Positions 17,044 to 60,007 of a stretch of DNA of 64,000 nt are shown here, in pieces. Source of the stretch: Cytidiella melzeri. Lineage: Eukaryota > Basidiomycota > Agaricomycetes > Polyporales > Irpicaceae. Within the stretch, counting starts at the first letter, position 1, and each line of letters opens with the position of its first letter. The notes under the pieces were generated by a model. It saw nothing but the letters and a program-made list of their open reading frames with translations. It made no database searches and was not told the DNA's origin. A program made the translations under genes and the position numbers. The stretch spans positions 39,678 to 103,677 of the forward strand of contig JABYQR010000145.1 of assembly GCA_022592445.1 (NCBI GenBank), read 5' to 3'.

Positions 17044-19078
17044 TAACAAAGTGCAAGTGGTGTGCGAGGGGTAGAGGCTGCTAAGCTTCGAAGATGAGTC
17101 TTATTATTATTGCTGCTTCAGCAGCTCTGCTTATATACATGTCTACTTCAGCTATTCTACTGTATTACTAAGTGCATGACTCATTGTATGACTAGGCTCA
17201 GCACTTGTACCAGAGGCGTATATATTGAGTAAATGACTCATACTAGTACTTGTCCTCAGACGTACACTTTAGGCATTCTCTGGAGTTGTACTACGTGCTT
17301 TCCATGTCATTTCCTATGTTACTAGAACACATGCATACATATATATGCAGTATTCCTATAGTGCTATACTACTTAGTCTATACAACCCATATCTGTATGT
17401 CTCAGCTATTGTGATGGTTACTAACAGAGTGACCATATACGGTGTGACACTAACACACCCCCTGGACACGAAGGGACCAGGCACAAACACACCAGACCTC
17501 TAGGGAGGTGATCACGTGTGTGAGTAGTAACAGGGGTGGAGTGAATATGTGATGCAAGTGGGTCCAAGAGTCCTAGGCTGCACCTGAACACAAACGAGAG
17601 GCGATACAATGCGGCAAGAGGCAACGAGACATGACAAGATGCGGCGCAAAGCAACAAGATGCGGCTCGAAGCAATGAGATGCAACGAGATGCAGCGCAAA
17701 GTGACAAGATGTGAATGTGCAAGTGGTAAATGGATGCCGCACTACAATGAGGGGCAAGAGGAGGGGATTGGGTATGTAGAGAAGTGCAAGAAACAACAGT
17801 GATACAAGGCGTGAGGTAAAGAGCCCAAGAGGGTGATGGTGGGAAAAGCTCAGAGGTTGAGTGAAGCAATGAGAAGAGGTCGCAAGGGATGAGAAGAAAA
17901 AAGAAAACACAGTGAATCACAGTTTCCAAGTGAAAGAGAAATGTGGTTTTAAAACACAAGGCAGTGAAAGGAACACAATATAAACGCAGTGGCCAAGAGA
18001 AGGTAAACAATGGCTTGAAAGGAGGATGCAGTGAAAGAGGAACACAACACAGTGAAATAACACAGTAAAACAAACACAGTGAGGAACACAAGAGGGCTCG
18101 AGAACGCAACACAAATGAGATATACGCACCACAAGAAGGCTCGAGATACAAGGTGCAAGTAGCAGGAAGGCGCGGGGCGCGAGATGCAAGGCTTGCAGAG
18201 GCAAACTTGTGGGGGGAAACACGGGGGGGTGCCGTATTCTGAGCTACTCGAGGTAAACACACACTGTGTATCAATACTACTGCATAAAAGTCCATATCGA
18301 ATTCAAGATCCGTGTGAGAGAGAGGGCAGTGTGAGATGAAACAAGGGGCAGTCATGAAACTTGTCACAAGAACAAGAAGTACACTGCTTCTTGTGCAGCT
18401 AAACTACAAGCATCCAATCAAACAAAGGCTTGGTGACTTGAGTCCACACAGGAGAAGGAGGCAGTGCAATAGAAACAAATCCTGGTAGTGACAAGTTTGG
18501 GGGACTGATGAGCTCCCCTACGCATGAGAAGAGCCACGAGATCCAAGGGCTCTCGAGTGACAAGGAGCTCTGCTTGTTTGCAAGAAGAATGCCTCGTTGG
18601 AGCTTGTTGCTGCAAGGGGGCTGCAAGAAAACCAAGGGTGGCAAGGGAAAGTGCCAATGTACTCAAGGCTGCCCAAAACTTGTGAGAGACACGGACAAGA
18701 ACTCGCGCAAGAATGCGAACCATAACTGAAGGGAGCACAAGCTCGAGTGCCCAAAGGGCTGAGCCATAGACAAGCTCGAGACGCGAGGTGCAAGGAGCAA
18801 GTCAGCTCAAAACGCGAGCTGGATGATAAGCTCGAGAAGGAAGCTGTAGAACCAGCTCTCGCGCAATCCTCGAGACGTCTCGCGAGGGCTCTTAAGTGAC
18901 AAGAAGCTCTGCTTGTTTGCGCGAAGGGGTCTTTGTTGAGCTTCTTGCATGTCCAGCGGTTTCCGGGCATATCAATGGCTGCATAATTCCCTTATCAAGA
19001 CTGTGGGAACTCGGCTGCCTTGAAATGTCCTTGTAACAAGGCGTGGGAAACTACATATTATATTATATAGTTTTAACA
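17044..19078 (-). repeat. Copia-1 3' LTR, interrupted by NCGN-A
   Basis: The segments 17044-17442 and 18979-19078 together match the 5' LTR at 51734-52267, sharing for example GTGGTGTGCGAGGGGTAGAGG, GATGAGTCTTATTATTATTG and the end CTAGTTTTAACA (here with TATATAG). The 5' LTR has an extra stretch of about 30 bp near 51,835-51,865 that looks like a local duplication. The LTR was intact before NCGN-A inserted at ACGG. Confidence 0.85.
17443..18974 (-). mobile_element. NCGN element copy A (subfamily 2) in the Copia-1 LTR
   Basis: Ends on the minus strand are TGATATGCCCGGAAAC and TGTTAGTGTCACA. The 4-bp flanks are ACGG (17439-17442) and ATGG (18975-18978), and removing the element plus one flank restores the LTR sequence known from 51734-52267. 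Subterminal sequence matches copy F (CGCTGGACATGC beside the 5' end; GTGTGTTAGTGTCACA at the 3' end; CACTTGCATCACATATTCACTCC inside differs). The interior is purine-biased on the plus strand with loose repeats (GATGCGGC, GCAACGAGATG). Long Ser/Leu/Cys-rich minus-strand frames are compositional, and I see no conserved protein. Confidence 0.8.
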
Positions 19079-19097
19079 CTCCCACTTAACCATTACA

Positions 19098-21823: not shown

Positions 21824-22558
21824 ACACTGATATGCCCAGAAAACGGCCAAGCACGGAGAAACGGCAGCATCCAGCCATTTTTGCGGCACATGTCCTCCTA
21901 AGTGGCAAATCCCCCACTTTCCCAGTGTTGCAGGCATGGGATATTCACCAAGGTCACGAGGTGTTTGCCAAGGATCAGCAGACTTTCCAAGGGGCAGCAA
22001 TCTGCCGGAAACACCCGAGGCCGTGAACTCGCACTAGCCTCTAACTTGCAGACATGTGCTCTTCGCATCGGAGTACGGACCAGCCAGCCACCAAGTGTTT
22101 CAGACGCGGGTCGGACCAACATTAGAAAAAATTTGACTTGCGGACCATGTTTCATTGAGGCTCCTATCACGCCACGCTGTGCAACTCCTGGACAGCGCAG
22201 CATTACCTGCTTGCAACTGTTGGGCGCTCTTTCAGTTGTAAAGGCGCGCGTCAGATCTCCGCCTCGACTAACGCTGTGTCCTGGCGAGCATTGATTTGCT
22301 GATCACTTTGCCTCCATTGGCGGAAGTACTCTGGTGCACTGGTTTCTTGCTCTCGCGTTTGGGATTAGGACAAAGAAGGAAAGGTTTAGGAGAGGGGCTT
22401 AGGTATACAAAAGGTGTTGTCTGTACTGCGTAGGAACACAATTGACCCCCCCCCTCTCATAGTTTTCCTTACACTTTGCACTCAAGTTGAGGGAGTCTCT
22501 TCGCGTCAATAAGCTGTAGCATCTCCTGCGTTGCTCTATTGCGTTCTCAACCACGTGT

Positions 22559-23083
22559 ATGTCCGCTGCACCTTCAATTCACAGCCCGCCTCATGTTTGC
22601 CACTGTTGTCCAACCGTTCCGCATTTGCCAGACGGTCACTGTCCTTACTGCCCGCAACACAACGTCCTTTGTCGTTACCCCATCATCCTTGCGCCTACAC
22701 CTCCACCAGAACCCTCAGTAGCACCTACAGTCTCCCCCGAGAGATCCACCACTAAATCCCCTTTACCAGCATCGTCCGTCGCCTTGGTTGCGGACTCGCT
22801 TGATAATTGCTCTTATTGCAACACACAGAGCAATCACCCAATTCCCCTGCGCTCCAATCCTTTTGTCCTGCTCAACTGCAACCGCCCACTCGCGCCGCAT
22901 CCAGATTGTTGGCTCTTACCAGACTTCGAAGGAGATAACCACAAGTGCGAACTCATCCAGTTCAATCTCCCAAGCTCCGCCAACGTCAACGTCGGCCACG
23001 CCTTCGCTTGTAACACAGATCGCTGCTCTGGAGGAGTTGTTCTTCACTATTGCTCCCGCAACCAATCAATCCAGTCAAACTGA
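22559..23083 (+). CDS. Cys-rich protein of NCGN element, copy B
   Basis: An intact 174-codon ORF lies in the middle of NCGN-B. It matches the ORFs of copies C and D nearly residue for residue in its C-terminal half (NCSYCNTQSNHPIPL, APHPDCWLLPDFEG, GHAFACNTDR) and keeps all nine cysteines seen in copy D, although the surrounding DNA is clearly diverged. The N-terminus has VCHCCPTVPHLPDGHCPYC, a C-x2-C...C arrangement suggestive of zinc binding. A Pro/Ser/Thr-rich linker (TPPPEPSVAPTVSPERS) separates two Cys-bearing halves. There is no match to a family I know, no signal peptide and no membrane segment. Function is unknown. Survival of the frame in several copies is the main evidence that it was translated in the active element. 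Confidence 0.65.
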   Translation: MSAAPSIHSPPHVCHCCPTVPHLPDGHCPYCPQHNVLCRYPIILAPTPPPEPSVAPTVSPERSTTKSPLPASSVALVADSLDNCSYCNTQSNHPIPLRSNPFVLLNCNRPLAPHPDCWLLPDFEGDNHKCELIQFNLPSSANVNVGHAFACNTDRCSGGVVLHYCSRNQSIQSN

Positions 23084-23236
23084 CTTTGGTCTAGCGTAGG
23101 CTTACGTGGTGTTTTGTGTCCAAGTGATTCACCCTTTGTCTGCAATTTGTTTGGCTTCATTGCGTTGCTTTTATTCCTAACCGCGTTATTTTACTGCATT
23201 ATTTTATTCCTAACCGCGTTATTTTACTGCATTATC

Positions 23237-23300
23237 TTACTGCGTTACTGCGTTACTGCGTTACTGCGTTACTGCGTTACTGCGTTACTGCGTTACTGCG
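23237..23300 (+). repeat. 8-bp tandem repeat (TTACTGCG)n
   Basis: About eight near-perfect copies of TTACTGCG sit within NCGN-B downstream of its ORF. The same GCGTTACT/GCGTTT vocabulary recurs in the 3' third of copies C, D and E at lower copy number, so the array expanded inside the element. Confidence 0.85.
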
Positions 23301-23751
23301 TCTGTGTTTCATCTTCACTGTGTCGAGCTTACTGCGTTTTACAGCAAACACCTTTATCTTCATTAGCAACTGCGTTATGTGTTTGGGACTTGTACTGTGT
23401 TTGTGTTTGCTGTTTGCAACTTTCCACGCGCTGTTTACTTTGAGACTTGGTGTCTTGCATGTGTCCACTTTATGTTTGCGCTAAGCCTCTTTTGCGTTCA
23501 CCGCGCCGCCCACCCTTTTGCCCGCAATACGCGTGGTGCTTTGCCCTCCTAGCTCAATTTATACAAAACCTTTATTATCAAAAACCTTGTTGCTCCTTGC
23601 AGCACAGGTAAACTAGGACTCTAAAGACCACCTCACACACTTTCACACTACTGCGCTCCCACGCCCTTACACTCCTATTGCCACTTTGTGGTTGGTTGTG
23701 TTGTTTTTGGGGTTGTAACTAGTTCCGGAGCGTACCACAGTGTCTCAACGC

Positions 23752-24066
23752 TTCATCTTTGTGCTTGAGATAATAAAGCATCTAATGACTAGAAGCATCA
23801 TCAAGACAAGTCATACCATATTTTTAACCATCTATAGAAGTTGTAGAGTATTCAATGAGATCAGAATGAATTAATTCAAGGACTTCTGCAGCTCTCAAAA
23901 TAGATGGTGGAAATGGTTGTCTCTTTCCTTTTCCAACTTGACATCCATGACAAGGAGAAATTGTCGATGGAATAGGAATCTCTTCTTTTAATCCCTTTGT
24001 TCCTTTGTGAAGATTTTTGAGCATCTTATTCCCTGGATGTCCTAGTCAATTATGCCACAACATATA
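23752..24066 (-). pseudogene. Copia-1 integrase zinc-binding region
   Basis: On the minus strand from 24066: YMLWHN-stop-LGHPGNKMLKNL, then SPCHGCQVGKGKRQPFP, then the start of the integrase core (LELIHSDLIEYS). The His-His-Cys-Cys finger residues are kept. The stop at 24047-24045 replaces the Arg of the highly conserved WH-x-RLGHP motif, consistent with CGA to TGA. Two further stops follow near 23822 and 23775. The segment is bounded by Helitron-N1 on one side and NCGN-B on the other; excising both restores a continuous coding path. Confidence 0.82.
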
Positions 24067-28576: not shown

Positions 28577-28660
28577 TAACAGTGCGGTGTAATGAGTTGA
28601 TGGTGTTTCATTTACTTTGTTATTTGCCATACAAATGTGTGTGATGAGCTGAATCTCCTG

Positions 28661-29444
28661 TTTCTACACTACACATCCAATCTATGCTCTCTCTCTCTCA
28701 CCCTGGCTCTCCTATACAAGCCCAAGCAAAGGCTTTCACTTACTTGTATGATTTTAGGTGTGTGTGCGTGCCAGATTTTACCTCTCAGCTGTGGTTTTGA
28801 CCCGCGATGCATGGGTCTGAGCGTTGCCCACCACGGTCTTTGCATTGCTCAGCACAGACACTGCATAACACACTAGGGTACTCACCTGCAAAGACGGTCG
28901 CGAATCCTTGTCTGACAAGCATGGAAGCTGGAGCTTTGTCCCTCTCCTCCTGTTTTCTCATCAGCTCTGTCTGCACCTTGATATCCTCCATTTGAGCATG
29001 GACAAGCCCTGTCAAGTTCTGTGTGTTATTTGTTAGATGGGTGAGCGGATGCGCTGTTGGCTGGTTTGGGAGCGGCGGGGGCATCAAGCAGTCCCCCGAG
29101 TTGAGATATTGGCATTGCTCATCAGAGAGCGACTCGTTGAAGCTAAGTCCCAACAACAACATTGGGGTTAGCAGTACCACTGACACAGCAATTGTAGAAC
29201 AACAGGATAATGTTGGTAGAGGGGTGGGTGATGCAAAGAGCACCGAAACACAGTAAGTCGTGTCCATCATTGTTGTCCACTCACCTCATTGACCTCGGAG
29301 CGCACGTAATCACGGTTACATCCTCTTCTGATAAAAGAGGATGTAAGCTCTTTCTTGTCAGCTCCGAGTTGCTCATTGCAGTGACCGCGAACTGTAAGTT
29401 CCTTCGATGTTTCGCTGTGTTCTTGCTGTGTGCTTTTCCCTCGA
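28661..29444. other. Helitron interior of unknown origin, with a hairpin
   Basis: No gene is supported. A minus-strand frame at 28785-29270 contains a polar stretch that could be a short coiled coil (NNTQNLTGLVHAQMEDIKVQ), without family match. From about 29,210 to 29,400 the sequence resembles 32,370-32,600 on the other side of the captured genes (GGTGGGTGATGC, CACAGTAAGT, TTACATCCTCTT). A perfect 12-bp hairpin lies at 29316-29327/29335-29346. Confidence 0.5.
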
Positions 29445-30859
29445 CAACATTGACTATCCCGTATTCCACAGCCCCTACGGCAAAATGGTGCAAAAGGCGC
29501 ATGGCCGTCTCGTCTGGAACGACTTTATCTCAGACCCCACTCACCCCAAATACACCTCCGTCCCCAACCCCTCCGCCGTCCTTTCCCAAGATTATAAAGA
29601 TTCCCTGCTCGACAAGTCCCTTAAAAAGACGTTCATTGGCCTCGCCAAGCCCCAATTCGATTCACACGTCAAGCTCGAGATGAAGTGCTCGAGACGGTGC
29701 GGGAACATGTACACCGCATCGCTCTACGGCGGACTCACCTCGCTCGTGTCGAGCGTCGAACCTGCGGAGTTCCTCGGGAAACGCATCAGCATGTTCGCGT
29801 ACGGCAGTGGCCTTGCCTCTAGCTTCTTCACCATTAAAGTCAAGGGCGACACGTCTCGGATCAGGCGCGAGCTTGATTTGGTGGAGAGGTTGGGGAAGAT
29901 GAAGGTCATTCCATGCCAGGAATATGTCCACGCGCTCAACTTGAAGTTGAGGGAGCACCTGACACGGAGACAAGGCTCGACGTGACAAACAGGGACACGA
30001 AGTGGATGACGACGAAGTGGTAGTGGTAGGCGTGAAGCTCAATACTCTCACCAGCTATAAACCTTATACAGATGTCTAGCCCAGTAAAGACCAAGTTAGT
30101 ATTGTTACTACCAGCTATGTAGTACAAGAGGGGGTTGCTTACCTAGCCCAGTAAAGACCAAGAGGTCGAGATGGGGGGCTAGGAGCGTACATGCAGCAGT
30201 ATATATAGACTTCAGGGACCTGCGCACAGACCATGTTGAGGGCAGGCTTTGCAAGAAGCCGTGTGAACGAAGAACAAAAGAACTACCTAAAAGAGAACAA
30301 TAGCTATTGTCTAGACCTTGCCAAGAACTCTACCCGTGAGAGAATCTATCTAAAAGGAGACCAACTATTGTATTCCATTCCCACACCTGTGAGAACATCC
30401 TTCCATAAAGAGAACAATAAGGAAAGAACAATAAGGAGCCCATGTGGACAGTATCTATGACGTCAAACCCTAGCTATGGGCTGAGCCATGTGCTTGTAGC
30501 CATGTGGTCTTACTTAAGCTAAGTCACATGCCAGTGTGACGTAGTAGCAAGTAATGTGACCGTGTGGAGCGTCTAAGCCACGTGATACGGGTGCTTAATA
30601 GACGTGAAAAGGGAGTTTATGCAGAGAAGGTTGCAACTGAGCTGCAGCCCGGAGTTTTACAGATAAAAACAAGAGATAAATTGTGAAAATTAAGGGCTAG
30701 TCAGGCCATCCATGACAGCACCATCATCTGTCGAAGACGTGGACTCCGGAGGAGTCGGTGGAGAATATTTGGCCGGGTGGGTACTATCTCGGGCATGTGG
30801 ATCAGAAGTATAGGAGACAGTACTTGCGCAAGCCGAAGGAGACGTCGACGACGGTGTAA
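29445..30859 (+). pseudogene. Captured HMG-CoA synthase 3' portion (split by a solo LTR)
   Basis: Coding sequence for the C-terminal half of hydroxymethylglutaryl-CoA synthase, the mevalonate-pathway enzyme joining acetyl-CoA and acetoacetyl-CoA. Recognisable blocks are DYPVFHSPYGKMVQKAHGRL (the conserved His-containing segment), LLDKSLKKTFIGLAKP, CSRRCGNMYTASLYGGLTSL, SMFAYGSGLASSFFTIKVKG and KMKVIPCQEYVHAL. A Gypsy-A solo LTR (29960-30717) interrupts the last part; past it the frame resumes with WTPEESVENIWPGGYYLGHVD and ends at the stop 30857-30859. The catalytic Cys half is absent. Upstream sequence looks intronic (acceptor near 29,440). Apart from the LTR, the frame is open, so capture or decay is not old. 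It lies inside the Helitron. Confidence 0.82.
29960..30717 (-). repeat. Gypsy-A solo LTR, copy 1
   Basis: 758 bp with plus-strand ends TGACACGGAG and CCATCCATGACA, flanked by GCACC at 29955-29959 and 30718-30722 (perfect 5-bp duplication). It is inserted in the HMG-CoA synthase exon, and excision restores the coding frame. Orientation is inferred from copy 3, where a polypurine tract abuts the LTR on the minus strand; a minus-strand TATA (GTCTATATATACTG) agrees. Confidence 0.9.
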
Positions 30860-36264: not shown

Positions 36265-36268
36265 CCGA

Positions 36269-38118
36269 TGAGACACTGAGTCACGCTTCAAACTAAGAAC
36301 AACCTTAAAGACAACACAACCAACCACGAAGTGGCAATAGAAGTGTAAAGGTGTGGAGGCGCGGAAGTGTTAAAGTAATGCGAGGTGGCCTAAGAGTCCT
36401 AGTTTTACCTGTGCTAAAAGAGCGACAAGGGTTGTGTGATAAAGTTTATATGAAGGGAGTTAGACGGGCAACTACCACGCGTATCGCGGGTAAAAGGGCA
36501 AGTCGGCGCGGTGAAAGCAAAAGAGTTATAGCGCGGCTCAAAGAGAACGCGCGGGAGATGTCGCGGCTTGTAGGAAAACGGCGCACGGGGGGGGGACGCA
36601 GAAGATAAACGCAGGCGCAATATGAATCTCGAACACAAAACGCGGTCGCTGGTGAAGATGAAATAGTCGCTGTAAAACGCGGGCGCAGTGAAAGTGAACG
36701 CAATAAGCTCGACGCAGTGAAGATGAAACGCAACGCAGTAACGCAGTAAAATAACGCAGTTAAAAAGCAAACGCAGTATAACGAAGCCGAGAGGAAACGT
36801 AAGAGAAAGATAAACTAATAGCGCGCGGGTCGCAGCGGAAGGCTATGTGAGATCGCCGTCAATTGGACTCGGCAGACTGCGCGCGGGGGCGGTAGTGTAG
36901 AACAACACCTCCCAAGCGGCGATGCGTATTACAGGCGAACGCGTGGCCAACGACGACGTTGGTAGAGCTGGTAAGATTGAACTGCACTAGTTCGCACTCG
37001 TGATCCTCGCCTTCAAAGTTTGTAGATAGCCAGCAATCTGGGTGCGGCGCGCGCGGGCGATCGCAGTCAAGCGGGACGAAAGGTCCTGTACGTAGGGGAA
37101 TTGGGTGGTTGCTCTGAGTGTCGCAATAGGAGCAGTTATCAAGCGAGTCCGCGACAGAGGCGACGGACGACGCTGGCAAGGGTGATTTAGGAGTTGATCT
37201 CTCAGGGGAGACCGTAGGCGCTGCTGAGGGCTCGGGCGGCGGCGTGGGCGCGGGGATGATGGGATAACGGCTTAGAATCTCGCGCGGGCGCGGGCTGTAA
37301 GGGCAACGGCCGGTGGGTGAATGGGGACCAGTGGAACAGCAGCGGCAGACTCGAGGCGGGTTGTTGTTGTTAGACGCCGCAGGCATAAACGTAGAAGAGA
37401 TCGCAATGAGGCAACACAGGAGAGGCTACAGCTAGGGACGCGAAGAGACTCCCTCGACGCGAACACAAAGTGTAAAGTGTACTCTGGGAACTGGGGTGTG
37501 GATTGATTGATTTCTACGCAGTACAAGCAACACCTTTTTATATACCCTAAAGACCCTCTCCTAAACCTTTCCTTCTATGTCCTAAACCCAAACGCGAGAG
37601 CGAGGAAACGGGGTGGCAGAATACTTCCGTCTGCGGAGGCAAAAATGCCCAGCGAGTCGACGCCCGGCGGGACACAGCGTTGGTCAACGCGGAGTAGCGG
37701 CGCGCGCACTTGCGCCGAAGAGGCGCCAACCGTCGCGAGCAGGTGATGAGGCGCCGTCCAAGAGTTGCACAGCGTGGCGTGATAGGAGCCTTCCTGAAAC
37801 GGGGTTCGCGCGTCAAGTTTCTTCTACCGTTGGTCCGACCCGTGTCCGAAACACTTGGTGGCTGACCGGCCCATGCTCCGATGCAAAAGGGGCGTGTCTG
37901 TGTATCAGAGTTCGGTGCGATTCCTCGGCCTCGGATGTTTCCGGCGCATTGCTCCTTGTCAAGTCCTCGGATCCTCGGCGAACTCCTCGTGCTCTCGGCG
38001 AACTCCTCGTGCTCGTGACGCTGGGAAAGTGGAGGGACTGCCGCTCAGGATGATGCGGGCCGCGCAAATGGCGGGCTGCTGCTGGGTCTCCGCGCCTAGC
38101 CGATTTCCGGGCGTATCA
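36269..38118 (-). mobile_element. NCGN element copy C (subfamily 1) in Copia-2 RNase H
   Basis: 1,850 bp. Minus-strand ends are TGATACGCCCGGAAATCGG and GTGACTCAGTGTCTCA; flanks are CCGA on both sides (36265-36268 and 38119-38122), a perfect 4-bp duplication. Excision restores the RNase H frame exactly. Layout on the element strand: GC-rich leader, TATA (GGGTATATAAAAAGG near 37,540), Cys-rich ORF, then GCGTT-rich 3' third. Sequence is close to copy D along its length. Confidence 0.92.
36859..37386 (-). CDS. Cys-rich protein of NCGN element, copy C
   Basis: An intact 175-codon ORF about 150 bp downstream of the TATA-like sequence. It is nearly identical to copy D and begins MPAASNNNNPPRVCRCC. 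The two halves each carry Cys pairs (VCRCC...C; NCSYCDTQ) and the C-terminal half has DCDRPRAPHPDCWL, HECELVQFN and GHAFACNTHRRLGGVVLHY. A Pro-rich linker (IPAPTPPPEPSAAPTVSPER) joins them. No homologue known to me. Differences from copy D (SPRPREIL vs RPRPHEVL, STNFEGED vs SPDFEGKD) are mostly conservative and leave all nine Cys in place. Inference: a DNA- or RNA-binding accessory protein of the parental element. Confidence 0.68.
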   Translation of the reverse strand: MPAASNNNNPPRVCRCCSTGPHSPTGRCPYSPRPREILSRYPIIPAPTPPPEPSAAPTVSPERSTPKSPLPASSVASVADSLDNCSYCDTQSNHPIPLRTGPFVPLDCDRPRAPHPDCWLSTNFEGEDHECELVQFNLTSSTNVVVGHAFACNTHRRLGGVVLHYRPRAQSAESN

Positions 38119-38122
38119 CCGA

Positions 38123-41040: not shown

Positions 41041-41044
41041 GCGT

Positions 41045-42887
41045 TGATACGTCCAAAATTCAGCTAGGCACGGAGACCCGGCAGCAGCCTGCCATTTGCG
41101 CGGCCCGCGTCATCCTGAGCGGCAAGTCCCTCCACTTTCACAGCGTCACGGGCACGAGGAGTTCACTGAGGTCACGAGGAGTCCGCCGAGGATCCGAGGA
41201 CTTGACAGGGAGCAACGCGCCGGAAACATCTGGGGCCGAGGAATCACACCGAACTCTGACTCACAGACACGCCCCTTTTGCATCGGAGCATGGGCCGGCC
41301 AGCCACCAAGAGTTTCGGACGCGGGTCGGACCAACGGTAGAAGAAACTTGACGCGCAAACCCTGTTTCAGGAAGACTCCTATCATGCCACACGGTGCAAC
41401 TCCTGGACGGCGCCTCATCACCTGCTCGCGACGGTTGGCGCCTCTTCAGCGCAAGGGCGCGCGCCGCTACTCCGCGTCGACCAACGCTGTGTTCCACCGG
41501 GCGTCGACTCGCTGGACATTTTGCCTCCGCAGACGGAAGTATTCTGCCACCCTGTTTCCTCGCTCTCGCGTTTGGGTTTAGGACATAGAAGGAAAGGTTT
41601 AGGAGAGGGTCTTTAGGGTATATAAAAAGGTGTTGTTTGTACGGCGTGAAAATCAATCAATCCACACCCCAGTTTCCAGAGTTCACTTTACGCTTTGCGT
41701 TCGCGTCGAGGGAGTCTCGTCGCGCCCATAGCTGTAGCTTCTTCTGCGTTGTCTCATTGCGACCTCTTCCACGTTTATGTCCGCTGCGTCTAACAACGAC
41801 AACCCGCTTCGAGTGTGCCGTTACTGTCCCACTGTTCCCCACTTACCCGACGGTCGCTGCCCTTACCGCCCGCGCCCGCACGAGGTTCTACGCCGTTATC
41901 CCATCATCCCCGCGCCCACGCCGCCGCCAGAACCCTCAACAGCGCCTACGGTCTCCCCTGAGAGATCAACTCCTAAATCACCCTTGCCAGCGTCGTCCGT
42001 CGCCTCCGTCGCGGACTCGCTTGATAACTGCTCCTATTGCAACACTCAGAGCGACCACCCAATTCCCCTACGTTCAGGACCTTTCGTCCCGCTCGACTGC
42101 GATCGCCCGCGCGCGCCGCACCCGGATTGCTGGCTATCTCCAGACTTTGAAGGCAAGGATCACGAGTGCGAACTAGTGCAGTTCAATCTTACCAGCTCCA
42201 CCAACGTCGTCGTTGGCCACGCATTCGCCTGTAATACGCATCGCCGCTTGGGAGGTGTTGTTCTACACTACCGCCCCCGCGCGCAGTCTGTTGAGTCCAA
42301 TTGACGGCGATCTCACATAGCCTTCCGCTGCGACTCGCGCGCCATTAGTTTATCTTTCTCTTATGTTTCCTTTCGGCTTTGTTATACTGCGTTTGCTCTT
42401 TAACTGCGTTATTTTACTGCGTTACTGCGTTGCGTTTCACCTTCACTGCGTCGAGCTTACTGCGTTCACTTTCACTGCGCCCGCGTTTTACAGCGACTAC
42501 TTCATCTTTACCAGCGACTGCGTTTTGTGTTCAAGATTCATATTGCGCCTGCGTTTATCTTCTGCGTCCCTCCCCGCGCCGTTTTCCTACAAGTCGCGAC
42601 ATCTCCCGCGCGTTCTCTTGGAGTTGCGCTATAACTCTTTTGCTTTCACCGCGCCGACTTGCCTTTTACCCGCAATACACGTGGTAGTTGCCCGCCTAGC
42701 TCCCTGCGCATACACTTTATCATAAACCTTGTCGCTCTTTTAGCACAGGTAAAACTAGGACTCTAAGACCACCTCGCACACTTTAACACTTCCGCGCTTC
42801 CACACCTTTACACTTCTGTTGCCACTTCGTGGGTGGTTGTGTTGTCTTTAAGGTTGTTCTTAGTTTGAAGCGTGACTCAGTGTCTCA
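41045..42887 (+). mobile_element. NCGN element copy D (subfamily 1) in Copia-2 gag
   Basis: 1,843 bp, ends TGATACGTCCAAAATTC and GTGACTCAGTGTCTCA, flanks GCGT (41041-41044) and GCAT (42888-42891), a 4-bp duplication with one CpG transition. It split the Copia-2 gag zinc knuckle: removal joins CYNCNKTGHTM to PTC, giving C-x2-C-x4-H-x4-C. A TATA stretch GGGTATATAAAAAGG lies at 41616-41630, about 150 bp upstream of the ORF. It is the best-preserved copy and a good reference for the family. Confidence 0.92.
41777..42304 (+). CDS. Cys-rich protein of NCGN element, copy D (reference copy)
   Basis: An intact 175-residue ORF. Cysteines fall at about residues 14, 17, 28, 85, 88, 108, 118, 131 and 152. 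The first cluster is VCRYCPTVPHLPDGRCPY (C-x2-C-x10-C) and the second NCSYCNTQSDHPIPL (C-x2-C with nearby His). Next come LDCDRPRAPHPDCWLSPDF and GHAFACNTHRRLG. Residues 41-75 are a Pro/Ser/Thr linker. The C-terminus is basic-hydrophobic (GGVVLHYRPRAQ). The Cys pairs spaced by two suggest zinc binding, but no named fold is recognised. The ORF starts at the first ATG after the TATA-like box, in the second half of the element, so a transcript would begin inside the element and run toward its GTGTCTCA end. Confidence 0.68.
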   Translation: MSAASNNDNPLRVCRYCPTVPHLPDGRCPYRPRPHEVLRRYPIIPAPTPPPEPSTAPTVSPERSTPKSPLPASSVASVADSLDNCSYCNTQSDHPIPLRSGPFVPLDCDRPRAPHPDCWLSPDFEGKDHECELVQFNLTSSTNVVVGHAFACNTHRRLGGVVLHYRPRAQSVESN

Positions 42888-42891
42888 GCAT

Positions 42892-47044: not shown

Positions 47045-48755
47045 TGTGCTCGAAGACAGGTTTGGTATCTACTTGAAGATTATTTACAGTCGCTTTGTCC
47101 TTGCCTTTGCCTTTAGACTTCTTGCGTTGTCCTCCTTTCTTTCCTTTATTCTCCTTTTTACCCTGCTTGTTGTTGGAAGAAGATCCTTGCTGATTATTTC
47201 CATTACCACGAGACTTCTTCTGGTTAGGTTTCTCTTTATCCCAGTGCTGACTTGTAGTATGGTTAGAAAGCCCGCACTTCTTGCATTTTTCTTTGGTAAA
47301 CGTGTGGTCTGCGTAATCTGATTTGCATTTTCACTGTTTTAACATCTTTGACGTAACTATTCCGCAAGTATCTTGGGGATAAGTGTGTTGAACTTGATTT
47401 CTTCGGGTTTTGCAACAGTTCCAATGTATGCAGAAATGGCGGTTTCATATGACGTTGGTAAAGCCCACAAAAGAATATGAACTTTAATCTGATCATCAAG
47501 GTCTAATCCAGCAACTTTGGTATCTCCAATCTTAGTACGGAAGCCTTGAATTTGTACGTTCAGATCCTTAGACTCATCAAAAGTTGAGCTAAGGAGGTTT
47601 CTGAATGCAACAGAGCTTGCTAAGACTGATGTCTTCTCAAAGTCTGTTTTCAATTTCTTCCACACTTCGGAGGCCAATTCCTCTCCTTCAAGATAGGATT
47701 GCAAAGTAATGTCAAGGTAGATATTGGAATAAGCTAAAGTGCGTTGGTTCTGAATTTCCCAATCCTTAAGTTCCTTCTTTTCATCAGAAGTGTCAGTGAC
47801 ACGGAGACGGGGCTCGACGTGGCAAACAGGGACACAAAGTGGATTTCGACAAGGAGGTGGTGGCAGGCGTGAAGCACAATGCTCTCACCAGCTATCAGAC
47901 TTTGTTCAAGTTATCTAGCCCAGTAAAGACCAAGTTAGAATTGATACTACCTGCTATGTAGTACAAGAGGGGGTTTGCTTACCTAGCCCAGTAAAGACCA
48001 AGAGGTCAAGATGGGGGCTAGGAGCGTACATGCAACTGCTTATATAGACTTCAGGGACCTGCGCACAGACCATGTTAAGGGCAGGTTTTGCAAGAAGCCA
48101 TGTGAACGAAGAACAAAAGAACTACCTAAAGGAGAGCAATAGCTATTGTCTAGACCTCGCCAAGAACTCTACTTGTGAGAGAATCTATCTAAAAGGAGAC
48201 CAACTATTGTATTCCATTCCCATACCTGTGAGAACATCCTTCCATAAAGAGAACAATAAGGAAAGAACAAAAGGAGTCCATGTGGACGTCATTTATGACA
48301 TCAAACCCTAGCTATGGGCTGAACCATGTGTCTGTAGCCATGTGGTCTTACTGAAGCTAAGTCACATGCCAGTGTGATGTAGTAGCAAGTAATGTGACCC
48401 TGTGGAGCGTCTAAGCCACGTGATACGGGTGCTTAATAGACGTGCAAAGGAGTTTGTGCAGAGAAGGTTGCAACTGAGCTGCAGCCCGGAGTTTTATAGA
48501 TAAAAACAAGAGGTAAATTGCGAAAATTAAGGGCTAGTCAGGCCATCCATGACAGTCAGGAGGTGCAGTAGTTGTACCAGAACCTGAACTGGTCACAAAT
48601 GATGCGCGTAAGGTGGGTTTTGTTTTGGTTCCATTCACAATTAACCAAGTGTTTGAATATCTGAACAAGCCGATCATAGCGGTGGACCATTTCTTGTAGT
48701 TTGAACTGTCGAAGACAATCATTTGACTACTGCTAATCTTTCCTGGTTCAGCCAT
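47045..48755 (-). pseudogene. Copia-1 gag (split by a Gypsy-A solo LTR)
   Basis: Start ATG 48755 gives MAEPGKISSSQMIVFDSSNY and KKWSTAMIGLFRYSNTW, the usual beginning of Copia gag. After excision of the Gypsy-A LTR (47797-48554) and one GTCAG the frame runs on (PPD|TSDEKKELKDWEIQNQ), then LASEVWKKLKTDFEKTSVLAS, DLNVQIQGFRTKIGD and a C-terminal zinc knuckle (about 47,270-47,290, KCGLSNHTTSQHWD region, last Cys not evident) with a long Lys/Gly/Asn tail. It ends where LTR-710 copy 2 cuts in (FEHNN). At least one stop or frame change near 47,330-47,357 separates core and knuckle. Confidence 0.85.
47797..48554 (-). repeat. Gypsy-A solo LTR, copy 2
   Basis: 758 bp, same ends as copy 1 (TGACACGGAG...CCATGACA), flanked by GTCAG at 47792-47796 and 48555-48559 (perfect). 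It is inserted in Copia-1 gag, and excision restores the frame. Confidence 0.92.
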
Positions 48756-48769
48756 TATAACCAAAAGCA

Positions 48770-51733: not shown

Positions 51734-52267
51734 TAACAAAGTGGAAGTGGTGTGCGAGGGGTAGAGGCTGTTAAGCTTTGAAGATGAGTCTTATTATTAT
51801 TGCTGCTTCAGCAGCTCTGCTTATATACATGTCTGTATCTACTTATGTAAGCAGCTACTATACATGTCTACTTCAGCTATTCTACTGTATTACTAAGTGC
51901 ATGACTCATTGTATGACTAGGCTCAGCACTTGTACCAGAGGCGTACATATTGAGCAAATTACTCATACTAGTACTTGTCCTCAGACGTACACTTTAGGCG
52001 TCCTCTGGAGTTGTACTACGTGCTTTCCATGTCATTTCCTATGCTACTAGAACACAGGCGTACATGTATGTGCAGTATTCCTATAGTGCTATACTACTTA
52101 GTCTACACAACCCATATCTGTATGTCTCAGCTAATGTGATGGTTACTACTAGAGTTACCATAAACAGCTGCATAATTCCCTGATCAAGACTGTGGGAACT
52201 CTTTTATTTTGAAACATCCTTGTAACAAGGCGGGGAAAACTACATATTATCTTATCTAGTTTTAACA
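51734..52267 (-). repeat. Copia-1 5' LTR
   Basis: 534 bp, minus-strand start TGTTAAAACTAGATAAG and end CCACTTTGTTA. It matches the 3' LTR at 17044-19078 after removal of NCGN-A. One end reads GTTA rather than the usual AACA in both LTRs, so the parental element already had it. TSD copy TATTG follows at 52268-52272. Confidence 0.88.
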
Positions 52268-53098: not shown

Positions 53099-54220
53099 TT
53101 AGTTGCTGTCGTCCTCATCCACCCAATTTTCCAAGCCCTGCAGCGCGTTCTCAACGTCCGAAAGTCCCAGAGGCTTGTCTTGTTTGCGCTCAATGCCTCC
53201 GAGGCAGCTGAAAGGTATTGTGAGAAATGCAGGTGTTGCAAACAACGATAAGCAGAATTCACAGGATTTTCTTGAACAGGCTATGGCGAATCTTTGTGGT
53301 GATGACAGGGTGCAGCTTGACCCAGTCTTCGAGCTGGCCAAGGTGCTCTTTGACCACCTGACCGTAGGTGGTCTCACAGAACTTGGGGCCTTTTTGCTCC
53401 AGTTGCCCTGTTGCCCAATGCATCAAACCACAACGGACCTGTCTGTCTTATGTTATCAGCGACAACAGAAGGTTTGAATGACTCTTACATACCATGGCGA
53501 GCAAGAGCGCAATTGTTGGAAGTGGGAGTGGATCAAATAACGTGCTGAATTTGGCGCCAGGAGATGTGTCTCCGCAAAAGACCAGTTCTTGCAATGTGTG
53601 TCAAATGATCGATACCTGTGCCAGCCCTCGAGGGAGATTGAGTGTGAATTCCTAAATGTGATGAGCTTATGTACAAAGCCTCGTAGCATTCGACGTACCT
53701 CGTAACAATAGCAATTAGCGTCCTGAGCCTGTCCAATTGGCTGCAGTAGCCACGCCACCCACTCTGCATTGGCTTTGGCAGTAGCGTCCTTTGATGTGTC
53801 AGTTTTGAGTCCGTATGTCTCCACTATCTTGCCACAAATCTTGTCCCTGAGATGACTGCGAAAGCTTGAAGCGCGACCAATAATCTGTTGGGGATCAGCA
53901 AGACCTAATGAGAACTCATGAATACATACCACCAAATAGATACCCCTGACTGCCTCGTCGTCAGGGGAATAGCTGCACTCGACCTCTTTGCAGCTAATCT
54001 GGAACACACTTCTTGCCCAAGTGTGCTGCCTGTTGTGATCTGGAAACGCAGATTCAGTCAATACTTCCAGCTGGTAACGTACAATAGCCCGCAATATGAT
54101 TGTTGCGGTGATGCCGGTGTAATTGCTCTCTTTTGGTCTACCATTGGTTGGCGCAGAGCCACCTTTGTACTTGACAGAGCTGTAGGCTTGGGGCGCTACA
54201 TCAGACGCAGTACGTGGCTG
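53099..54220 (-). pseudogene. DUF6532-like gene carried by the Plavaka element
   Basis: DUF6532 proteins are common in mushroom genomes and of unknown function. Reading minus from about 54,215: [30 protein letters not shown], an intron (GTATGT...CAACAG), GRASSFRSHLRDKICGKIVETYGL, NAEWVAWLLQ, an intron after CYCYE (GTACGT...TTTAG), then TLQELVFCGDTSPGAKFSTLFDPLPLPTIALLL split at the usual place by another intron (GTATGT...GACAG), MHWATGQLEQKGPKFCETTY, and a last intron into a tail ending NWVDEDDSN. One in-frame stop (TGA at 53603-53601) precedes HTLQELVF. Apart from this it looks intact, and the introns have good sites. It abuts the transposase fragment at about 54,205. Confidence 0.65.
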
Positions 54221-55252
54221 CTTACACGGCGATCAACCCATTCTGGAAAAATCTTCCGTATTGCAGTATATTCGCCTGCATGACACCTGATCTCCTGCAT
54301 CAGCTTCATAAAGGCATGTTCAAGGATCATACCCGTAAAGTGGGCGACAGCGTGTGTAGATGGGAAGGAAGACGAAGTGGACAGGTGATTCCGCACAATG
54401 CCAACCCATCCCAATCTCCGCCATTTCCGTAAGGGCATCTCGCTGGTCTCGCAGTGGACGGGTAATGAATACAAGCATATGGAGAAGGTGTTCCTCGGCG
54501 TAGTTGCGGGAGGTGCCGACACAGACGTTGTCAAGGCGGTGCGAGCCGTTTTGGACTTCGTCAGTGACGCTCACTTCGAAACACATACCAACAATTCCCT
54601 CTCAGGTTTGAACGACGCCTGGACGCGCTTTCACTCATACAAGCAGGTCTTCGTGCGGCTAGGAGTACAAAAAGACTTCAACGGTATTCCAAAGCTCCAT
54701 TCCATGACTCACTATCTTGAGTCCATCCGTCTTCTAGGAACTGCAGATGGATACAACTCCGAAGGGCCTGAACGGCTCCACATCAACTTTGCCAAAGTTG
54801 TTTATCGTGCAAGCAATTGCAAACAGTACATCCACCAGATGACTGTATGGCTCGATCGACAGAACACTGTACACCGGTTCGAAGCCTATCTCCGCTGCTG
54901 GAAACACGGCCGCGTTTCACAACTTCTTCGGACAGGAGAGGAGGAGGATGGGAATCATGATGAGGACGATGGTGAGAACATTCGCGCTGACCAGCTGGCG
55001 TTGGGAGCAGATGAAGGCATCTATACTATCGCGCGGTGAGACACTGAGTCACACTCCAAAACTAAGTACAACCCTAAAGACAACACAACCAACCACGAAG
55101 TGGCAATAGAAGTGTAAGGTTGTGAGAGCGCGGAAGTGTGAAAGTGTGCGAGGTGGTCTTAGAGTCCTAGTTCTACCTGTGCTGCAAAGAGTGACAGGGT
55201 TTGTGATATAGGCTTTATGTGAATGGAGCTAGACAGGCAAACTACCACGCGT

Positions 55253-57022
55253 TGATACGCCCGGAAATTGCTGGACGTGCAACAGGCCCACCGGCAAGCA
55301 CATTCGCATGGACTAGCAGCAGCCCTTGGTTCTGGAAAGACTTGCATTGCATCGCCTCGCTTTGCTTTGCTTTCCATTGCATCGCTTCGCCTTGCTTTGC
55401 TTTGCATCGCTTCATTTTGCCTTGCTTCGCATTGGGTCGCTTTGCTTCCCTTCGCTTCGCGTCCCCTCGCCTTGCATTCCCTTCGCGTTGCCTCGCGTGG
55501 CGTCGCGTTATCTCGCGTTGCCTCGCCTTGCATTGCATTGCATTCCCTCCGCTTCCCTTCGCCTCGCGCCGCCTCGCCTTGCCTTGCCTTGCATGTTGCT
55601 TCGCATCGCGTTGCGCCGCCTTGCTTCGCCTCGCGTTATCTCGCGCTGCCTCGCGTTGCCTTGCCTTGCATTCCCTCCGCTTCACTTCGCCTCGCGCCGC
55701 CTCGCGTGGCCTTGCCTTGCATTCCCTCCACTTTGCTTCGCCTCGCACCGCCTCGCATTGCCTCGCCTTGCATGTTGCTTCGCGTCGCGTCGCGCCGCCT
55801 TGCTTCGCCTCGCATTATCTCGCGCTGCCTCGCGTTGCCTCGCTTCTCCTCCGCTTTGCTTTGCCTCGCGTTGCCTTGCATTGCCTCGCTTCGCATTGCC
55901 TCGCGTCGCGTCGTGCCGCCTTGCTTTGCCTCGCGCCGCCTCGCGTTGCATTCCCTCTGCTTTGGTTCGCATGGCTTTGCATTGCATGGCTTCACTTGCC
56001 ACATATTGCATCCTTGTAGTCCCTCGCACTCAAGCTCATAGCTATTGGAACCCCCTGGCCCCCTTTTCCACTCCCTCGGATTTCACAGCCTGTTCTCTTT
56101 GCAGAGCGGCTAAAGGCAGTGCCCCATCGCTCCTGTAACATGTTTCGCGTTTGTCCCTTGTTTCATCGTGCGATGCCCCTTTCCTTGCCTTGCTCTCGCA
56201 TGGCTTCAATTTGCTATAGCCCCTATTGCCTTTTACTTATATACGCTGTGTCTGTGCTTTGCTTAGCTTAGAATACGACATCCCCGCGGTTTTCCCCTCA
56301 AAGTTGCCCCTGCCACTTTTCCCTTGCTTCTTGAGCAATTCCGCAGTGCGTATCTCTCACCCTGCGCCACTTTCTCCTTCATTGCGACCCCCTTTTGTGT
56401 TCCTACTGCGTTTATTTCACTGCGTTACTTACTGCGCTGCGTTTCTCCTTCACTGCGACCCCCTTTTACAGCCGCCCCTTCTCCTTCTCAAGGCTACTGT
56501 GATTTAGATTGTGTTTATTCTGTGTTCCCGTTGCATTTCCTACTGTGTTTGCCATGGTATTATGCGTTATCCTCTTGCAATGAGCCAGCGCAGTCCTTTC
56601 TCTTGCACTCTACCACACCACCTCCTCTTCCCCCTCTTGTGTTATTGCATTCCAATTGCTCCCCTTTCTTCACCACTGCGTTGCCTTAAGCTCTATCGCT
56701 TTTACACCACTTTCTTTTGCAACACTTAAGTTCTATTGCCTCTTTGCATTGCATTGCCTTGCTTGGTTTTACTTTACATCTTTCTACCCGGAACTTTTCC
56801 CAGCTACCCAAACAAACCACAGCGCTTTTGGCTTTGCACTCCGAGCTCTGCAACTGCATCACCGCTCGCCCGAGTCTAGGTCCAGCCTAGGACTCTTGGA
56901 CCCACTCGCAACCTACATTCACGCATACCCTCAACCCCTACTTACACATGTAATCGCCTCTTGCGAGGTCAGGTGTGTTTGTGCCCGGTACCTTTGTGTC
57001 CGGGGGGTATGTTAGTGTCTCA
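55253..57022 (+). mobile_element. NCGN element copy F (subfamily 2) nested in copy E
   Basis: 1,770 bp, ends TGATACGCCCGGAAATTGC and TATGTTAGTGTCTCA; flanks GCGT on both sides (55249-55252 and 57023-57026), a perfect 4-bp duplication within NCGN-E. Subterminal sequences match copy A (GCTGGACRTGCAA... at the 5' end; GGTGTGTTTGTGCC and TAGGACTCTTGGACCCACT at the 3' side). It lacks the Cys-rich ORF. Most of the 5' half is a pyrimidine-rich low-complexity stretch. Confidence 0.9.
55335..55990 (+). repeat. Pyrimidine-rich pentamer-like array (CTTCG/CCTCG/CTTTG/CATTG)
   Basis: About 650 bp made almost wholly of 5-nt words of the form (C/G)(C/A/T)TYG such as CCTCG, CTTCG, CTTTG, CATTG and CGTTG, with higher-order repeats of about 80-120 bp. 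It produces long open frames in several phases and strands, which is an artefact of the period not being a multiple of three. A weaker version with the same words reversed is present in copy A (about 17,590-17,710). Confidence 0.85.
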
Positions 57023-57243
57023 GCGTATCGCGGGCAAAAGGGCTAGTCGGCGCGGTGAAAGCAGAAGAGTTTTAGCGCGACTCAAAGAGAACGCGTGGGA
57101 GACGTTGCGACTTGTAGTAAAAACGGCGCGCGGAGAGACGCGGATGGTAAAAGCAGGCACAGTACGAATCTCGAACACAAAACGTGGTCACTGGTGAAGA
57201 CGAAAGTAGTCGCTGTAAAACGCGGGCGCAGTGAAAGTGAACG

Positions 57244-57675
57244 CATTAAGCTCGACGCAGTGAAGGTGAAACGCAGACGCAATAACACAGTAAAATAACG
57301 CAGTTAAGAAGCAAACGCAGTATAACGAAACCAAAAGGAACCGTAAGGGAAAGACAAACTACTGGAGCGCGAGTCGCAGCGTAAGGCTATATAAGGCCGC
57401 AGTCAATTTGACACGATAGACTGCACGGGGGGGCAATAGTGTAGAACAACACCTCCCAGCATTAAGCTCGACGCAGTGAAGGTGAAACGCAGACGCAATA
57501 ACGCAGTAAAATAACGCAGTTAAGAAGCAAACGCAGTATAACGAAACCAAAAGGAACCGTAAGGGAAAGACAAACTACTGGAGCGCGAGTCGCAGCGTAA
57601 GGCTATATAAGGCCGCAGTCAATTTGACACGATAGACTGCGCGGGGGGGCGATAGTGTAGAACAACACCTCCCAA
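57244..57675 (-). repeat. 216-bp tandem duplication in NCGN-E
   Basis: 57244-57459 and 57460-57675 are two near-identical copies starting CATTAAGCTCGACGCAG and running through GCGCGAGTCGCAGCG to ACAACACCTCCCA. It covers the 3' end of the Cys-rich ORF and downstream sequence. Copies C and D have one unit. Confidence 0.88.
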
Positions 57676-58157
57676 GCGGCGATGCGTATTGCAAGCGAAT
57701 GCGTGGCCAACGACGATGTTGGTAGAGCTTGTAAGATTGAACTGTACAAGTTCGCACTTGTGGTCCTTGCCTTCAAAGTCTGGTGACAGCCAACAATCTG
57801 GATGCAGCGCGTGCGGGCAATTGCAGTCAAGCAGGACAAAAGGTCCGGAGCGCAAGGGAATTTGATGGTTGCTCTGAGTGTTGCAATAGGAGCAGATGGT
57901 CGCTCTGAGTGTCGCAATAGGAGCAGTTATCAAGCAAGTCCGCGATGGAGGCGAGGGTGATTGAGGAGTAGATTGCTCAGGGGAGACCGTAGGCGCTACT
58001 GAGGGTTCTGGCGGCGGCGTGGGCGCGGGGATGATAGGGTAGCAACGAAGAACCTCGCGTGGGCGCGGGCGGTATGGGCAGCGACCGTCTGGTAAGTGGG
58101 GAACTGTGGGACAATAACGGCAAACACGAGGTGAGTTGTCAATGGTAGGCGCAGCGG
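57619..58157 (-). pseudogene. Cys-rich protein ORF of NCGN element, copy E (broken)
   Basis: Remains of the family ORF. The C-terminal half is open (CSYCNTQSNHQIPLRSGPF, LHPDCWLSPDFEGKDHK, GHAFACNTHRRLGGVVLHY). The N-terminal half (PTVPHLPDGRCPYRP region) is in another frame because of small indels, including a local repeat of about 31 bp (GGTCGCTCTGAGTG...AGGAGCAG at about 57,868-57,930). It shows the family once had this ORF in all subfamily-1 copies seen here. Confidence 0.75.
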
Positions 58158-60007
58158 ATATAAATGCAGAGAAAGACGCAATGAGGCAACACAGGAATGA
58201 CTACAGCTATTGGTGCAAAGAGACTCCCTCGACGCGAGCGCAAAGCGTAGACTGTACTCTGAGAACTGGGGTGGGGATTGATTGATTTTCTACGCAGTAC
58301 AGGCAACATCTTTTATATACTCTAAAGACCCTCTCCTAAACCTTTCCTTCTTTGTCCTAAACCTAAACGCGAGAGCAAGGAAACATGGTGGCAGAATACT
58401 TCCGTTCACGGAGGCAAAATGTCCAGCAAGTCGACGCCCGGCAGGACACAGCTTTGGTTGACACGGAGAAGCGGCGCGCGCCCTTGCGCTGAAGAGGCGC
58501 CAACCGTCGCGAGCAGGTGATGAGGCTCCGTCCAAGAGTTGCACAGCGTGGCGTGATAGGGGACTTCCTGAAACGGTGTTTGCGAGCCAATATTTTTCTA
58601 TCCTTGGTCCGACCCGCGTCCGAACACTTGGTGGCTGGCCGGCCCATGCTCCGATGCACAAGGGGTTTGTCTGCGAGTCAGAGTTCGGTGCGTGTCCTCG
58701 GCCTCGGATGTTTCCAGCGCGTTGCTGCTCCTTGTCAAGTCCTCGGGTCCTTGGCAAACTCCTTGTGACCTCGGTGAACTCCTCGTGAGCTTGGTGAACT
58801 CCTCGTGCCCGCGACGCTGGAAAGCAAAGGGCTTTGCTGCTCAGGATGACGCAGGCCGCGCAAATGGCGGGCTGCTGCCAGGTCTTCGCGCCTAGCCAAT
58901 TTCCGGGCGTATCAGCAGAAGCCTACATTTTCCAACACATTAGTAAGGACGATAGTTGCCGAGTTCTGCACACCGGATTTTGCTCAATGCCTGGAGGACT
59001 TTGTGACCAAGACACAGGGTGTTCCGAGTCATTCCTCGCAAGCACCAACAGTAAGTTTGGCTTCGTCGTTACACGCAGGAAAACACTCACACATTACAGA
59101 CAACCCCACAGTCTCTGTCTTTCCTTCACTCCATCAACAGCTACACTACATTCGCGGTTTATAAACAGTTCAAGAAGGCCTTGCCTCGAATGAGCCAAGT
59201 CTCAAAGAAACTCACCGCGGATTCAATACGCGCGTTTCCCGCTTGACTTGGAGCAACAGCAAGCACACTGCCTCGTCATCTTTGTGCTCAGGCCGCAAAA
59301 TTCTCCACAGTGCTAGCCTTCAATGGTGCATATGGCGGTACCCGTTCTGATGATGGTACCAACGCCGCTTTGTATAATCCTATCGATGGTGAGTGCCTTT
59401 GTGTTCATGAATGTCGGGAACTCTCTAACGTATAGCAGGTCTGACCGTTGCACAAGTTTGAGTAATCTTTTGCCTTCCAGAAACTGTCAGCTATCTCAGC
59501 AAACATCCGCTTGCGTACGTCGAGTGGTTCACGCCGTTCCAACCGTACAACAATATTACTGGCATGTTTTCTGTTGCACCATCACAAAGAAATTGTAATT
59601 GTTGCGCATCAATCATCCCCATCACTGCTATTGTACGTTCTTGTCATCTTATACCTGCGTGGGGTTGTGCTGCCAACATTCACTGGACCTCGGAGAATGT
59701 ACTGGAGCGGTGTACTCGTTTCTATGTCAATACTTACCTGCAACACTCGGACTTTGTTTTGATTCTATTTCTTGTAGATAGATGGCAAAAAACTTGCAAC
59801 ACTTCATCAATCCTCTAATAAATCATTCTTTGCATTTTTATGTTATTTACGCAACTATGGGGCCCTACAGGTAGCTACAGAGAACAATGCCAAGCTATGT
59901 AGAGCTACCACGCCAGATCAATGTCAACTGGCGCTCCGTAGTACCGGACTTACTACGTGGTTATTCCCTGTTTCCTGATGCTACTCTACTCTCATAGCCT
60001 TCTAACA

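Follow-up and report, generated by a model that had tools for sequence, protein, structure and literature searches.

A Gypsy retrotransposon of Cytidiella melzeri that inserts almost exclusively at CpG and carries two additional genes, one within its long terminal repeat

In this study, a stretch of 64,000 nucleotides from the basidiomycete Cytidiella melzeri (contig JABYQR010000145.1, positions 39,678 to 103,677; hereafter the window) was analysed together with the assembly to which it belongs (GCA_022592445.1; 49,687,580 bases in 731 contigs), with six related insertions in the window, copies A to F, as the starting point. The main finding is a Gypsy retrotransposon for which CpG is a nearly obligatory target and which has two additional genes, the first of them inside its long terminal repeat (LTR). 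Copies B, C, D and the outer part of E are very probably solo LTRs of about 1.85 kb from one Gypsy/Ty3-type (Metaviridae) element, left by LTR-LTR recombination and placed by an integrase that reads CpG, while copies A and F, judging from their shared ends and target, are probably LTRs of a related subfamily. The strict CpG landing rule is real genome-wide and is sharper than in most relatives.

The landing rule was examined at the ends of the element throughout the assembly, where copy D as query gave 45 matches (40 scored of 447 candidates). The strict left-end pattern TGATAYGYCCRRAAA occurs at 326 places and its reversed control at none, and in 247 of them the two middle bases of the 4-bp target are CG; another 27, all among the non-CG left ends, are strict polypurine-tract junctions. 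Likewise, the strict right-end pattern TGACTCAGTGTCTCA occurs at 188 places (control 0), and NCG comes next in 145. A genome-wide enrichment of CG in the 4-bp targets had been set beforehand as the test of the rule, and these counts bear it out. In a sample of 80 left flanks the centre dinucleotide is CG in 53, CA in 9, TG in 7, GA in 7, AG in 2, CC in 1 and CT in 1. All seven GA-centred flanks are polypurine tracts, and the 27 ends without CG comprise these 7 junctions and 16 cases of CA or TG, the decay products of CpG. Against a CpG background of 4.19% in the window outside the copies, 53 of 80 has a binomial probability of 4.8e-53. The sample was taken from the first 89 listed left ends, of which nine were omitted because five lie in the window and four had already been fetched; these nine comprise 5 CG, 3 CA/TG and 1 polypurine junction. 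Full-span copies of D tell the same in a set that overlaps with the sample: 28 copies from 30 fetched loci (L001 is copy D itself; L008 and L028 were omitted as not full-span) include 19 with an exact target-site duplication (TSD), which has CG in 19 of 19, three 3' LTRs at a polypurine tract, and six with unequal flanks, at least one of which has CG in every case.

It is scarcely credible that composition or survivorship produced this pattern, through GC-rich targets or through preferential retention of CG-centred copies. Regional GC content would favour such an artefact, as would a somewhat high count of CG at positions -5/-4 (10/80), but at each of the eight registers five to twelve bases ahead of the element CG reaches just 1 to 10 of 80, as against 53 at the centre; the 0/80 at the two registers directly beside the centre is automatic for the 53 CG-centred flanks. 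A second LTR family of this genome, taken as control, with an LTR of 758 bp and 854 left ends (at most 2 mismatches), also speaks against it, since CG is found in 0 of its 7 exact TSDs. These are 5-bp duplications, GGTTC, GTAAC, CTTTA, GCTAT and ATCTT at five of 18 fetched loci and GCACC and GTCAG in the window, where a third copy has no exact TSD. The remaining 13 fetched loci comprise 2 without a right end, 1 without a match and 10 with recurring CCTAA on the left or TTACC on the right, which were taken for internal junctions.

Most exceptions to the rule have the form that decay of CpG would give. Decay to TpG or CpA would blur one of the two TSD copies, and across the LTR copies C>T changes amount to 5.9% per CpG site versus 1.3% per other C/G site. 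Twenty sampled copies with neither CG nor a polypurine tract on the left were fetched where the right end was expected. The right end was readable in eight, with the right flank taken directly past the full GTGTCTCA or GTGTCACA, and CG was present in seven. The eight left/right pairs are GCTT/GCGT, ACAT/GCGT, GCAC/GCGC, CTGT/CCGT, TTGG/TCGG, GCAG/GTGG, CCAC/CCGC and ACAG/ACGG, of which GCAG/GTGG is the outcome that two different decays of GCGG would give. No identical non-CG TSD was found among the readable pairs, namely the 25 non-polypurine full-span copies and the eight exceptions.

As to the nature of the element, the earlier note had left a choice between a non-autonomous family without an integrase and solo LTRs of an unseen retroelement. 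The parent element is present in the same genome, which settles the matter in favour of the second for B to E and makes the first unneeded for these copies. Directly left of 3 of the 28 full-span D copies stands GGGGGGAGAA, with TTAGTTGGGGGGAGAA left of these three D-like copies, and integrase frames lie farther upstream on the same strand, in one of them together with RNase H. Because the polypurine tract adjoins three D copies in this way, with integrase upstream on the same strand, B to E are LTRs. At the other side of the internal part, the 5' LTR junction of C707 reads ...GTGTCTCA followed directly by TTTTGGAGCCCACCGCGAGGG, and primer-site junctions of CA with TTTTGGAGCCCACCGCGAGG number 22 genome-wide at up to 3 mismatches, as counted with a pattern holding one wrong letter. 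In our own comparison, 18 letters of the primer site starting from TGG are complementary to the 3' end of tRNA-Lys(CTT), with its CCA inferred. Five places fit the 3' end of the primer tRNA, four of them exactly and the fifth with a mismatch; two were read, and both are tRNA-Lys(CTT) with an intron. These two genes, at about position 1500 of L172 and L173, are the likely source of the primer tRNA; tRNA-Lys was called in both with introns allowed, and nothing was called without the intron option.

The parent has LTRs of about 1.85 kb around an internal part of about 9 kb, in total about 12.8-13 kb. Pfam matches follow the order aspartic protease (PR), reverse transcriptase (RT), RNase H (RH), Integrase_H2C2 and rve, which is the PR-RT-RH-INT order (INT, integrase) of Gypsy/Ty3 elements, and flanking TG...CA LTRs, a primer site and a polypurine tract are likewise present; in L040 two of the matches lie below the Pfam cut-offs (RT 21.5 vs 29.6 bits; rve 20.7 vs 32.6). 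The integrase frame contains YLGPLIVV...RGGAYVLCEL, which we take to resemble a GPY/F module, although it has no profile match. No chromodomain, the mark of a chromovirus, was found in the integrase frame of L033 (511 aa to the stop, E up to 5). Two loci have both LTRs, the pairs being placed by their ends rather than by full-length comparison. C100:69206-82161 (12,956 bp) has the outer ends, primer site, polypurine tract and GCGT on both flanks, and in C124:243908-256674 (12,767 bp) the LTRs measure 1852 and 1853 bp, each with the LTR gene described below. The flanks of C124 differ (GCGT and ACGC), and it has therefore probably recombined. C303 was dropped as a two-ended example because the left part of its 5' LTR is absent, and comparison of stretches from the Gypsy controls C335 and C79 revealed no LTR pair.

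These junctions also bear on the idea of a non-autonomous DNA transposon, for example a Ginger-like one with an integrase-derived transposase and 4-bp CpG targets. Ginger1 has an integrase-like transposase and 4-bp TSDs of CCGG (75%) or CCGT/ACGG (24%) (PMC2836005), and is the one CG-centred 4-bp precedent that we found in the literature, so that the earlier description of a strict CpG centre as unusual is largely right, with this qualification. A DNA transposon is nevertheless extremely unlikely here. Junctions of LTR with primer site and of polypurine tract with LTR exist and for B to E already refute it, LTR ends stand on both sides of an internal part with RT and RNase H, and the terminal inverted repeats are just a few bp. 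The 53 CG targets of the sample, moreover, comprise 14 different NCGN 4-mers, with GCGC 5 times and CCGG only 4.

Several observations weigh against the account given so far. No gag domain was found in the parent with Pfam, the integrase of C100 is in pieces with stops, and the interval of its 3' LTR (79573-82161) is about 0.7 kb too long, presumably owing to an insert. The parentage of A and F is inferred only. As for the targets, the right end was not seen in 12 of the 20 non-CG, non-polypurine copies, so that the original target is unreadable there, and the GCAG/GTGG copy (L101) was read via an end with two mismatches. The pairs of L005 (GCGG/ACGT), L012 (ACGA/GCGA) and C124 differ beyond CpG decay, and those of L066 (ACAT/GCGT) and L061 (GCTT/GCGT) require a change other than plain CpG decay. 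Finally, AlphaFold2 models of the LTR-encoded protein and the integrase were too poor (mean pLDDT 39.8 and 30.5), and no residue could be tied to CpG recognition.

Another finding of this study is that the LTR itself carries a gene. Each LTR of the B to E type in the window holds a Cys-rich open reading frame (ORF) of about 175 aa, putative in E, at LTR positions of about 733-1260 in D, which is absent from A and F (for A, by tblastn with the LTR ORF at E 1e-3). A conserved protein encoded in the LTR itself is, to our knowledge, uncommon. Between B and D, dN is 0.153 and dS 0.894, a ratio of 0.171, as against 1.50 and 1.33 in the other two frames, and a codon-like pattern with a variable third position is strong only in this stretch; a weaker pattern of a different kind lies at LTR positions of about 1426-1650. 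The ORF was recognised in 28 of 30 copies, with 183-190 codons from stop to stop. Among D-like copies, changes seen in a single copy comprise 57 nonsynonymous (N) and 31 synonymous (S), an N/S of 0.89 of expectation, and N/S falls to 0.68 of expectation for changes common to at least four copies. Being conserved between lineages and near-neutral in single copies, the gene seems to serve the replicating lineages of the element, while solo LTRs seem to drift. No homolog was found with Pfam in any of 20 members, and PDB gave chance-level matches only.

The presence of this gene raises the question of whether the 1.85-kb unit is mobile by itself, in which case it would be a one-LTR element that has a gene of its own and not a remnant of recombination. 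The 326 left ends against 27 polypurine and about 22 primer-site junctions, counted with patterns of different strictness, might suggest so, as might an ORF that is stop-free in 146 of the best-scored 150 places. However, these 150 were the best among 480 candidates and are hence biased to intact frames, the near-neutral singleton changes give no sign of selection on single copies, and solo LTRs derived by recombination have an identical anatomy. We therefore regard a self-mobile unit as very unlikely and keep to solo LTRs of a Gypsy element; from the same counts, and with the same reserve about strictness, we estimate that most copies are solo LTRs.

The second extra gene lies ahead of the 3' LTR, on the strand opposite to pol. 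Between the integrase and the polypurine tract, antisense stretches at about L032:689-1000, 1087-1670 and 1800-2426 have a codon-like periodicity in three copies, and the gene is probably spliced, because the frame shifts between stretches. In L033 its third part contains CDFCKEKDVERCYRPSNGTRCFRCLPCADIKHAC, which by eye we take to resemble a fungal Zn2Cys6 cluster, a likeness that Pfam does not support. A Pfam search of the antisense ORFs gave nothing useful.

How such a target rule might arise is suggested by the integrase, which has a DDE spacing of 57 and 34 and an H2C2 domain and, compared by sequence with solved structures, matches prototype foamy virus integrase best (8.7e-13) and Ty3 next. 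Retroviruses that make 4-bp TSDs have a flexible pyrimidine-purine (YR) step at the centre, with T and A underrepresented at the two edges of the TSD; foamy virus bends its target sharply at a central YR, with the consensus KWK\VYRBMWM in which VYRB lies inside the TSD, and retroviral integration in general favours only weakly conserved palindromes (PMC4422553). The logo from the sampled left flanks, V-CG-B, amounts to a strict version of foamy-virus V-YR-B. T makes up 9% of the first position and A 8% of the last among the 53 CG targets; T and A are thus rare at the edges as in foamy virus, which points to the geometry of that virus, with the central step restricted to CpG. By analogy with the foamy-virus intasome, the integrase would join the two ends of the cDNA at target positions staggered by 4 bp, and this would force a sharp kink at the central target step. 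Related integrases favour any flexible YR step there, whereas that of the parent would accept hardly any step but CpG, preferably with no T ahead of it and no A behind it; flexibility would then have to be supplemented by base readout at the centre. LTR-LTR recombination would then leave mostly solo LTRs. We infer that the narrowing is due to base readout by the integrase; that the register is fixed to a single base favours the integrase over a partner.

A different reading is that CG is recognised in its methylated form, or else via a host CpG-binding factor, which steers the element to silent DNA rich in transposable elements (TEs), its chromodomain having been lost or never present. The integrase frame without a chromodomain match, the several insertions in or beside other TEs (partly by eye) and the higher C>T rate at CpG, as expected for methylated copies, are in its favour. 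Against this, a tether alone cannot fix a single-base register, and the insertion flanks are not CpG-poor (observed/expected 0.82 vs 0.77 in the window outside the copies); the TE-richness around insertions comes without a null comparison. This reading is unlikely, and readout by the integrase itself remains our preferred explanation. We also speculate, with slightly more doubt still, that a generic preference for a bendable step has been turned into an obligatory and possibly methylation-sensing recognition of CpG, aided by the zinc-binding-like LTR-encoded protein or by the Cys-rich product of the antisense gene; the sites would then be chosen by DNA methylation marks instead of a chromodomain.

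Compared with known systems, the parent shares with Gypsy/Ty3 elements the PR-RT-RH-INT order, TG...CA LTRs, tRNA primer site, polypurine tract and 4-bp TSD, and differs from them in its strict CG target, the protein gene in the LTR, the antisense gene before the 3' LTR and the lack of a chromodomain match. With prototype foamy virus, whose integrase is the closest solved one, it shares the disfavoured T and A at the TSD edges and the flexible central step; the virus, however, prefers YR steps in a weak consensus, and the centre here is essentially only CG. The ZAM group of Drosophila errantiviruses likewise has a palindromic 4-bp target with CG; the target is CGCG (PMC5408687), so that its centre is GC, in contrast to a centre of CG with free outer bases except for rare T and A. 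CGCG is not the commonest target in our element, and GCGC makes up 5 of 53. Ginger1 has a 4-bp TSD with central CG and a Gypsy-like integrase in common with the parent, but it is a DNA transposon with terminal inverted repeats of 40-270 bp and a narrower target, neither of which was found here, whereas the parent has LTRs and RT. In other systems, plant LTR elements have GC-rich centres of their 4-bp TSDs (PMC6911290), the target motifs of LTR families in resequenced Drosophila are palindromic and tend to be AT-rich (PMC3276498), and Troyka elements, close to Gypsy, have 3-bp TSDs and CG...CG ends (PMC12440569), which is a different phenomenon from a CG-centred target. The portions consulted of reports on TEs of Marasmius oreades, Cryptococcus and Laccaria contain nothing on a target rule of this kind (PMC9674265, PMC12810828, PMC3411680), and a search of titles and abstract openings, covering literature other than subscription papers and Repbase, found no description of such a CpG-targeting element or of its LTR and antisense genes. 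What makes this system of interest is that, within the V-YR-B frame of foamy virus, hundreds of naturally occurring insertions nearly all share a single dinucleotide, so that what turns flexibility into specificity is testable with one integrase. In addition, the LTR gene makes every solo LTR whose frame is intact a candidate small gene.

In the window itself, the coordinates and termini that the earlier note gave for all six copies (Table 1) are correct, as is its claim of a CG-centred target, CG being present on one side or both of all six. Its other statements hold in part. The 4-bp TSD is exact in C and F, and off by one CpG transition in A, B, D and E. Of the single family of six, B, C, D and outer E align with each other over their length in long pieces at 71-93% identity, and A and F have only the termini in common with these; A and F are alike over about 168 bp at 76%. 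The termini, TGATACG... and ...GTGTCTCA, show by eye an inverted match of just a few bases. Excision had been said to restore a known sequence at five copies. When the flanks were joined, a frame was open at C (by eye resembling Copia RNase H), at D (with a zinc knuckle CX2CX4HX4C by eye, a second frame being open as well) and at E, where the ORF has no Pfam match and the label Plavaka transposase is thus unconfirmed; A has an empty-site counterpart in an uninterrupted paralogous LTR at 51734-52267, and at B no frame was open. LTRs of the family also stand next to or inside one another at L037, L036 and L023, some of them head to head, as with E and F in the window.

Table 1. Coordinates of the copies, their targets, the LTR ORFs, the parent domains and the control LTRs (window positions unless a locus is named)
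Feature	Position	Strand	Remarks
Copy A, LTR-like, terminus type A/F	17443..18974	-	ends; flanks ACGG/ATGG
Copy B, solo LTR, divergent subfamily	21828..23747	+	72% to D; flanks ACAC/ACGC
Copy C, solo LTR	36269..38118	-	93% to D; exact TSD CCGA
Copy D, solo LTR, 1843 bp	41045..42887	+	genome-search query; flanks GCGT/GCAT
Copy E, solo LTR, F inserted within	55037..58914	-	flanks GCGG/GCAG
Copy F, LTR-like, type A/F, nested in E	55253..57022	+	exact TSD GCGT
C target, left	36265..36268		CCGA
C target, right	38119..38122		CCGA
D target, left	41041..41044		GCGT
D target, right	42888..42891		GCAT, decayed CpG
F target, left	55249..55252		GCGT
F target, right	57023..57026		GCGT
Tandem duplication of 216 bp inside copy E	57243-57458 / 57459-57674		
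LTR ORF, copy B	22559..23083	+	174 aa, 77% aa identity to D
LTR ORF, copy C	36859..37386	-	175 aa
LTR ORF, copy D	41777..42304	+	Cys-rich, 175 aa
LTR ORF region, copy E (putative frame)	57622..58161	-	similarity only; 75% aa identity, 182 columns
Protease, parent	L040: 2389-2838		Pfam
RT, parent	L040: 2754-4040		Pfam
RH+INT, parent	L040: 4197-5855		Pfam
Control LTR copies, TGACACGG...CATGACA	29960-30717, 47797-48555, 60088-60845		

Two further observations were made in the window. Copy F has a long pyrimidine-rich stretch at 55340-56000, with diverged internal repeats and several frames open. At 29407-29985 there is a fragment like the C-terminal part of HMG-CoA synthase (Pfam 5.5e-49), whose end lies near an LTR copy of the second, control family.

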